A stretch of 64,000 bases of DNA from Methylobacterium oxalidis (GTDB lineage: Bacteria > Pseudomonadota > Alphaproteobacteria > Rhizobiales > Beijerinckiaceae): the NCBI RefSeq assembly GCF_007992195.1, contig NZ_BJZU01000049.1, positions 1 through 64,000 on the forward strand, written 5' to 3'. The translations under genes and the position numbers were made by a program. Below the pieces are notes generated by a model. The model ran no database searches. It was not told where the DNA came from and saw nothing but the letters and a program-made list of their open reading frames with translations. Positions 13,751-17,230 of the stretch are shown here, one piece after another. Position 1 is the first letter of the stretch, and each line of letters opens with the position of its first letter.

Positions 13751-16234
<2,484 letters not shown>

Positions 16235-16315: not shown

Positions 16316-17230
16316 ATGACCTGCCTCGCCATCGACTTCGAGACGGCCAACGAACGACGCGACAGCGCGTGCGCGGTCGGGCTCGCCTGGATCGAGGACG
16401 GGCGCGTGGTTCGGCGCGCGTCGCGCCTGATCCGGCCGCCGGAGATGCGCTTCTCACCCGGCAACATCCGGGTCCACGGCATCCTTCCGGCCGACGTGCG
16501 GGACGCGCCTCCGTTTCCCGTTGCGATGGCGGAGTTCCTCCCCGATCTGGAGCACGGCCTGATCCTCGCCCACAACGCGCCCTTCGACATGGGCGTGCTG
16601 CGGGCCTCCCTCGCAGCGCATGGGCTGCCGGTGCCGTCGTTCTCCTACCTTTGCACCCTGCAGGTGGCGCGACAGGTCTTTCCGGACCCGGCGGGATGCG
16701 GTCTCGGGAAGGTCGCGAGCCGCCTCGGCATCCGCTTCGAGCATCACGACGCCGGCGAGGACGCCTTCGCCTGCGCCGAGATCGCGCTGGCGGCCGTTCG
16801 GGTGACGGGCGCGGAGAGCGTCGCGGGGCTGACGCGGGTACTACCGCTGCGGGTGACCACGCTGCCGCCCGGTCCCGAAATGCCGAGGTACCGGGCACCG
16901 GGCCGGGAGGGGATCGCGGGGCGCGCCGCCCTGTCGGCCCGGCGGCAGTTTGCGGATGCCGAGGTGCGCTTCATGATCCGCGGCAGCACCGGCAACCGCT
17001 ACGAGGTCGCGCTCGAAGAGCGGCCGTCCGGCCTCTACCTGCGCTGCACCTGCATGGCCGGACGCAACCGCCGCCGCTGCCGCCACGTGGACGCGATGGT
17101 GGACGGCGACGTCACCGATCTGATCTCGGAGAACCTCGCCGACGTGGAGCGCCTGCGCCGGTTGATCGAGGACGCCCCGGCCGGGCACCGCGTCGAGCCG
17201 GAGCGGCTGCGCCGCGTACAGGCGGCGTGA
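16316..17230 (+). CDS. DEDDh 3'-5' exonuclease with C-terminal SWIM-type zinc motif
   Basis: 304-residue protein. Residues 1-165 form an exonuclease domain of the DNA polymerase III epsilon type: motif I with Asp7 and Glu9 (AIDFET), motif II HNAPFDMGVL, and motif III HHDAGEDA with the catalytic histidine and aspartate. The C-terminal part carries Cys244-x-Cys246-x8-Cys255-x-His257 (LRCTCMAG...CRH), which fits the SWIM zinc-finger pattern CxCx(n)CxH, preceded by a strand-rich GSTGNRYEVALE segment. SWIM motifs are known in DNA- and protein-binding proteins. Role in repair or RNA/DNA trimming is inferred. No clear ribosome binding site; it follows ligA by 81 bases. Confidence 0.82.
   Translation: MTCLAIDFETANERRDSACAVGLAWIEDGRVVRRASRLIRPPEMRFSPGNIRVHGILPADVRDAPPFPVAMAEFLPDLEHGLILAHNAPFDMGVLRASLAAHGLPVPSFSYLCTLQVARQVFPDPAGCGLGKVASRLGIRFEHHDAGEDAFACAEIALAAVRVTGAESVAGLTRVLPLRVTTLPPGPEMPRYRAPGREGIAGRAALSARRQFADAEVRFMIRGSTGNRYEVALEERPSGLYLRCTCMAGRNRRRCRHVDAMVDGDVTDLISENLADVERLRRLIEDAPAGHRVEPERLRRVQAA

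Follow-up and report, generated by a model that had tools for sequence, protein, structure and literature searches.

The exonuclease and SWIM domains described here belong to known families, the SWIM zinc finger reportedly going back to Makarova, Aravind and Koonin in 2002, while their fusion, the linkage of the exonuclease to ligA and the exchange of the SWIM for a BRCT domain are apparently new; none of the three was found among the matches listed in the open-licence PubMed Central literature. The DnaQ-like exonuclease NF004844 (PRK06195) resembles residues 1-180 of the protein studied here (E 3.2e-56), but the score of 191 bits lies below the cut-off of 373 and the C-terminal part is unmatched. 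PRK06195 proteins presumably end in a BRCT domain. The exonuclease domain of S. aureus DinG (8zef/9ii8) has the same DEDDh fold (Z 21.0-21.7, 20% identity), although DinG is a helicase fusion and the present protein has no helicase. Exonuclease-BRCT proteins of Caulobacter and other alphaproteobacteria are members of the same exonuclease family and are also found behind ligA; they bear a LigA-like BRCT where our protein bears a SWIM, and two relatives (L031, L130) have both. With the Pfam SWIM family PF04434, our protein shares CxC-x8-CxH, a preceding β-hairpin with G..G..Y and a following helix, but it is not detected by Pfam, and its subfamily has a C-terminal G-x(6)-S-x-N stretch and helix, which is common to stand-alone proteins of 110-125 aa. 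The same SWIM subfamily, without an exonuclease domain, is present in phrog_13130-like stand-alone proteins of about 110-140 aa and in WP_347469898.1 of Burkholderia stagnalis (359 aa). To our knowledge, no dedicated 3'-end editor for nick sealing by LigA has been known in bacteria.

The window, that is, the whole stretch of 64,000 nt from Methylobacterium oxalidis that was analysed, carries the following features.

13796..16234, + strand: ligA, NAD-dependent DNA ligase (PF01653, E 5.7e-93; also OB, ZBD, HHH and BRCT)
16316..17230, + strand: DEDDh exonuclease-SWIM gene, 304 aa, ATG start
16316..16810, + strand: DEDDh exonuclease domain, residues 1-165 (PF00929, invariant catalytic residues, fold match)
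16889..16954, + strand: linker, probably flexible, residues 192-213 (pLDDT <50)
16967..17152, + strand: SWIM-type domain and the start of its C-terminal helix, about residues 218-279 (hhalign, strand and helix order, PF04434 matches in relatives)
17045..17086, + strand: predicted zinc ligands C244 (17045-17047), C246 (17051-17053), C255 (17078-17080) and H257 (17084-17086), invariant in 43/43

The initial annotation had placed the open reading frame exactly, and the DEDDh exonuclease core that it named is well founded. The PF00929 match covers residues 5-156 (E 1.4e-15, 58.7 bits against a cut-off of 24), and D7, E9, D91, H144 and D149, which we take to be the DEDDh residues from known family motifs, are invariant in all 43 aligned family members. 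Judged by sequence, the window gene is a member of this exonuclease family with its catalytic residues intact, and its product is predicted to have 3'-5' exonuclease activity. The AlphaFold model, built with the 43 aligned members (mean pLDDT 88.3), has an exonuclease fold resembling the structures of DinG, Pol III epsilon and exonuclease X (Z about 19-22). The best NCBIfam models were Pol III epsilon-like, DEDD exonuclease, DinG and PolC, and the window protein scored below the curated cut-offs of all 24 NCBIfam models among the matches listed. Elsewhere in the same genome, there is a second match (C12, E 2.9e-7, 34%), as well as a PF01612 3'-5' exonuclease domain within a 1116-aa frame which, judged by its length, is probably Pol I. 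The idea that Methylobacterium lacks Pol I proofreading and needs the enzyme in its place is unsupported, given this PF01612 domain.

The C-terminal motif C244-x-C246-x8-C255-x-H257 is found at the residues that had been claimed for it, and its four ligand positions, with x8 between the pairs, are invariant in 43/43 aligned members, an alignment that was chosen by presence of the motif. In a set that was not motif-chosen, made up of 44 distinct proteins whose exonuclease identity is 55% or more, the motif is present in 43, and the lone protein without it (L055) ends at 186 aa. A CxCx(6-25)CxH pattern arises in 351 of 200,000 shuffles of the window protein, which makes a chance origin unlikely yet is not decisive; the conservation is decisive. 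Across 13 ortholog pairs, pN/pS is 0.03-0.32 in the SWIM stretch and 0.04-0.25 in the exonuclease part; selection on the SWIM stretch is purifying.

A comparison with the SWIM family PF04434, which had been proposed as a check, gave a divided answer: the window's own protein has no match at E<=10, while 24 of the 43 aligned members, scanned singly and with the window protein entered among the 43 as a non-match, match at this loose limit. The best of these was L031 (E 8.8e-4, 19.2 bits against a cut-off of 19.6). In a PF04434 search of 59 genomes of the genus, five exonuclease loci (G083, G677, G008, G252, G108) scored 18.4-18.8 bits, just below the cut-off, which a Burkholderia member of this SWIM subfamily exceeds with 26.2 bits. 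In addition, hhalign of the profile of residues 210-286 with Pfam-positive Methylobacterium SWIM segments scored 36.8 (P 6.9e-7, reported probability 85%). The controls stayed lower: 20 column shuffles that kept the ligand columns reached at most 11.25, 20 full shuffles, of which 18 were aligned, reached a maximum of 2.94, and the exonuclease half gave 4.2. The structure prediction that had also been suggested favours the assignment, since the model places strands at 218-222, 228-236 and 239-244 and a helix at 256-262, with pLDDT about 90, in the order expected of a SWIM around its ligands (residues 218-262). Absence of a SWIM match together with ligands lying apart had been held to speak against the domain; at most half of this was found, in that the window protein lacks a PF04434 match, yet its relatives match. 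On the strength of the relatives, the profile comparison with its controls and the Pfam-positive subfamily member, the C-terminal domain is a genuine and conserved SWIM domain, as the initial annotation had proposed, and C244, C246, C255 and H257 are its predicted zinc ligands.

The exonuclease-SWIM gene is conserved in the genus. At a threshold of E<=1e-30 and with stop codons read through, a search with the A1 profile found the exonuclease gene in 110 of 111 genomes of the genus; 104 of these matches extend through the SWIM (14 of them holding one stop), two are split in two and four comprise the exonuclease part only, one of the four at a contig end. The two split matches (G689:C1:3783154-3784025 and G1420:C1:4340088-4340949) lie in different frames, which might reflect a natural split or a frameshift. 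At the same threshold, the family sample of 298 genomes gave 36 with a match; 25 of them, counting that of the window, belong to the genus and 11 lie outside it, and in six of these 11 the match runs through the SWIM. The order and class samples gave 25 of 397 and 27 of 385 genomes, respectively, and outside the genus, only G580 and G569 (both in the order sample) match through the SWIM; the G476 sequence has a divergent SWIM followed by a BRCT (L130). A tree built from 137 exonuclease domains places all SWIM rows (44, with two more of the SWIM+BRCT form) in one clade with support 99/97, which also contains the short row L055; the tree was midpoint-rooted and has some long branches, which makes its finer placements unsure. 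Since all SWIM rows and L055 share one clade, one gain and one loss of the SWIM is the simplest history for the rows of the tree. L055 itself, from Methylobacterium sp. WSM2598, is a 186-aa exonuclease without a SWIM behind ligA, apparently a loss. An origin of the fusion in phages or plasmids was also considered and rejected: tblastn against 72,556 plasmid and 50,697 phage records matched 96 and 68 records, respectively, none covering 80% of the query, and the best 40 of the 96 and the best 40 of the 68 all end by residue 169, in the exonuclease part.

In the window, ligA lies directly upstream of the exonuclease gene on the same strand with a gap of 81 nt. The initial annotation had read this position after ligA as a possible hint of a repair role, and the hint is stronger than was claimed because the adjacency recurs across alphaproteobacteria: it was seen in Methylobacterium, Camelimonas, Caulobacter and one Rhodobacterales-labelled record. 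No consensus promoter or terminator was found near the gene in the window, which is neutral as to an operon. In locus counts that include near-identical loci, ligA is upstream on the same strand at 31 of 52 SWIM loci (30 of the 31 within 91 nt), 1/1 SWIM+BRCT loci, 4/4 BRCT loci and 38 of 53 short loci, with at least 813 nt between the genes in 28 of these 38. At the other 21 SWIM loci, among them all five labelled Methylorubrum, ligA was not found within the flank (1.5 or 4 kb). The stop codon of ligA and the nearest exonuclease start codon overlap by 4 nt in six of the 28 distinct SWIM proteins with ligA found, five of the six being close relatives. Two Rhizobium-type short loci examined have a GNAT gene on the opposite strand between ligA and the exonuclease gene, and a RecF/RecN/SMC-type gene (PF02463) is upstream of ligA in all four loci scanned (L096, L072, L056, L054), with matches below the Pfam cut-off in L072 and L054. 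As read from gene order, linkage to ligA is a recurrent property of the exonuclease family, and the adjacency suggests that the exonuclease and LigA work together on DNA ends.

The C-terminus of the exonuclease family is a SWIM, a BRCT, a SWIM followed by a BRCT, or a short tail. The BRCT domains of six ligA-linked exonucleases (L031, L068, L072, L079, L082, L130) have a median identity of 55-75% to 57 LigA BRCTs, in contrast to 30-41% for eight other exonuclease BRCTs with no ligA in the flank; by this difference the six are LigA-like in sequence. Five of the six resemble LigA BRCTs from other species more closely than the BRCT of their own LigA, and L068 is the sole one closest to its own (61%). 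The extreme case is L082 (Caulobacter sp. BK020), whose exonuclease BRCT shares 94% identity with the BRCT in the LigA of a different Caulobacter (L067) but 59% with the BRCT in its own LigA, which looks like replacement or transfer. A strict move of the LigA BRCT onto the exonuclease is not established, given that five of the six are not closest to their own LigA and that a 70-residue domain is too short.

The SWIM subfamily also occurs apart from the exonuclease. When 398 genomes from the phylum were searched with a C-terminal domain profile, they yielded stand-alone proteins of about 110-140 aa (E down to 4.7e-16), which carry CxC...CxH with x7 or x8 and, in most cases, a following G-x6-S-x-N-like stretch; among nine scanned, two were above the PF04434 cut-off and eight matched phrog_13130 at E<=0.01. 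The flank (up to about 1.5 kb) contained ligA at three of 25 stand-alone places (G1114, G1240, G1167), two further places having been left out, and no ligA at the other 22. All three come from a single family, where the stand-alone protein occurs in 3 of 74 genomes. In G1167, the SWIM gene directly follows ligA, while in G1114 and G1240 an ORF of 243-251 aa lies between the two (L224:6237-6965(-), L225:6216-6968(-)), for which Pfam gave no match at E<=0.001. The window's own genome also has a second subfamily member, which stands alone and is about 110 aa long (G000:C27:23471-23761; loci L219, L231); its gene lies between transport genes and kdpD/kdpC. Five neighbouring ORFs were scanned, and four of them matched Pfam, as NMT1, BPD_transp_1 (both transport), KdpD and KdpC. 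A repair neighbourhood for this copy was accordingly rejected. The copy in G1135 lies beside recO. In Burkholderia stagnalis, WP_347469898.1 is encoded on a plasmid (L222:5992-7071) and continues beyond the SWIM for about 250 aa, a part with no Pfam match at E<=0.01; a likeness between this tail and a neighbouring ORF in L227 was dropped (BLASTP E 0.011 over 12 residues). Moreover, in one proteobacterial family (f240), the subfamily is fused to SulP-STAS sulfate permeases: among the matches listed, 14 places lie in frames of at least 389 aa, six sequences were inspected (L259, L260, L262, L265, L266, L268; also L208), and Pfam confirmed the permease fusion (PF00916, PF01740) in L259 and L260. 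Because of these fusions, the SWIM alone is no argument for nucleic-acid binding, and together with the 22 of 25 stand-alone places without ligA, they indicate a domain without a fixed link to DNA.

Our preferred reading, held tentatively at a probability of about 0.45, is that the window gene encodes a 3'-5' DEDDh exonuclease that trims DNA ends and is coupled to LigA, with the SWIM, or the BRCT in relatives, as its docking part. At nicks and small gaps, its exonuclease domain would remove 3' ends that carry a mismatch or damage or that cannot be ligated for some other reason, before or in the service of sealing by the NAD-dependent ligase LigA. The C-terminal module, which is a SWIM here and a LigA-like BRCT, SWIM+BRCT or short tail in relatives, may keep the enzyme at the nick by docking on DNA or on a protein partner via the flexible linker. 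DNA as the substrate, the coupling to LigA and docking by the SWIM are each putative. What counts for the coupling is the set of catalytic residues, the true SWIM, the purifying selection, the recurrent ligA linkage, the LigA-like BRCTs and the three ligA-linked stand-alone SWIMs. What counts against it is the lack of a flanking ligA at 21 of 52 SWIM loci and likewise at 22 of 25 stand-alone places, and the SulP fusions; moreover, with a PF01612 domain in the 1116-aa frame, end proofreading is not obviously missing.

Other readings have to be weighed against LigA coupling. A rather unlikely one is that the protein trims RNA or scavenges nucleotides in the manner of RNase T or oligoribonuclease, with the proximity to ligA being a matter of genome economy. 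The model is almost as similar to the DEDDh folds of RNase T, 3'hExo/ERI and TREX1 (Z about 17-19) as it is to the DNA enzymes, the exoribonuclease family PF16473 gives a weak match under its cut-off (E 7.7e-4), and the SWIM loci without ligA agree with it. It fits poorly with the top NCBIfam models, which are Pol III epsilon-like, DEDD, DinG and PolC although all below cut-off, with the LigA-like BRCTs on six ligA-linked relatives, and with a ligA linkage that extends from Methylobacterium to Camelimonas, Caulobacter and a Rhodobacterales-labelled record. An auxiliary, epsilon-like proofreading subunit of a DNA polymerase, unrelated to ligation, is improbable: the name DNA polymerase III subunit epsilon is given to PRK06195 and to several more of the NCBIfam models that match, but the window protein is below the cut-offs of all 24 models listed, the genome holds another match on C12, and the recurrent neighbour that was found is ligA.

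As for the C-terminal domain, the SWIM might be a zinc- or redox-responsive module that switches the nuclease on and off and is no tether, which seems quite unlikely and would be partly compatible with the LigA-coupled reading. The stand-alone members of the subfamily and those fused to SulP-STAS permeases, where a nucleic-acid ligand is unlikely, would suit such a role, but the ligands are invariant, as for a structural zinc site, in relatives the C-terminal position is held by BRCT, a known docking module, and no sensing partner was noticed in passing. That CxC...CxH is a chance or degenerate motif without any SWIM domain is hardly credible and is refuted for the sequence pattern. Beyond the missing PF04434 match of the window protein, none of the 43 aligned members reaches the Pfam cut-off, and a fold search with the C-terminal domain alone (model mean pLDDT 75) returned nothing reliable among PDB structures (best Z 4.0; best Foldseek E 0.81), with no SWIM of known structure retrieved, although the fold is still possible; the A1 profile, compared with the sequences of solved structures, matched exonucleases and polymerases only. 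Against these stand the invariance in 43/43 members and in 43/44 of the set that was not motif-chosen, the shuffle-controlled profile match, the PF04434 matches in 24 of 43 members and the Pfam-positive members of the subfamily, and the chance motif is ruled out by this conservation and by the shuffle controls.

If the LigA-coupled reading is extended to the whole family, the genes may represent a previously undescribed ligation-editing system of alphaproteobacteria, which we consider doubtful at present. An exonuclease encoded behind ligA would check and trim 3' ends prior to sealing, with an interchangeable docking module that is a LigA-like BRCT, a SWIM, both or neither; the adaptor in Methylobacterium would be the SWIM, a module that stands alone behind ligA in a few other proteobacteria. 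The recurrent pair of ligA and exonuclease with swappable docking modules would provide a concrete and testable candidate for a 3'-end editor, and would tie a bacterial SWIM domain to one definite enzyme, in a gene neighbourhood that recurs.
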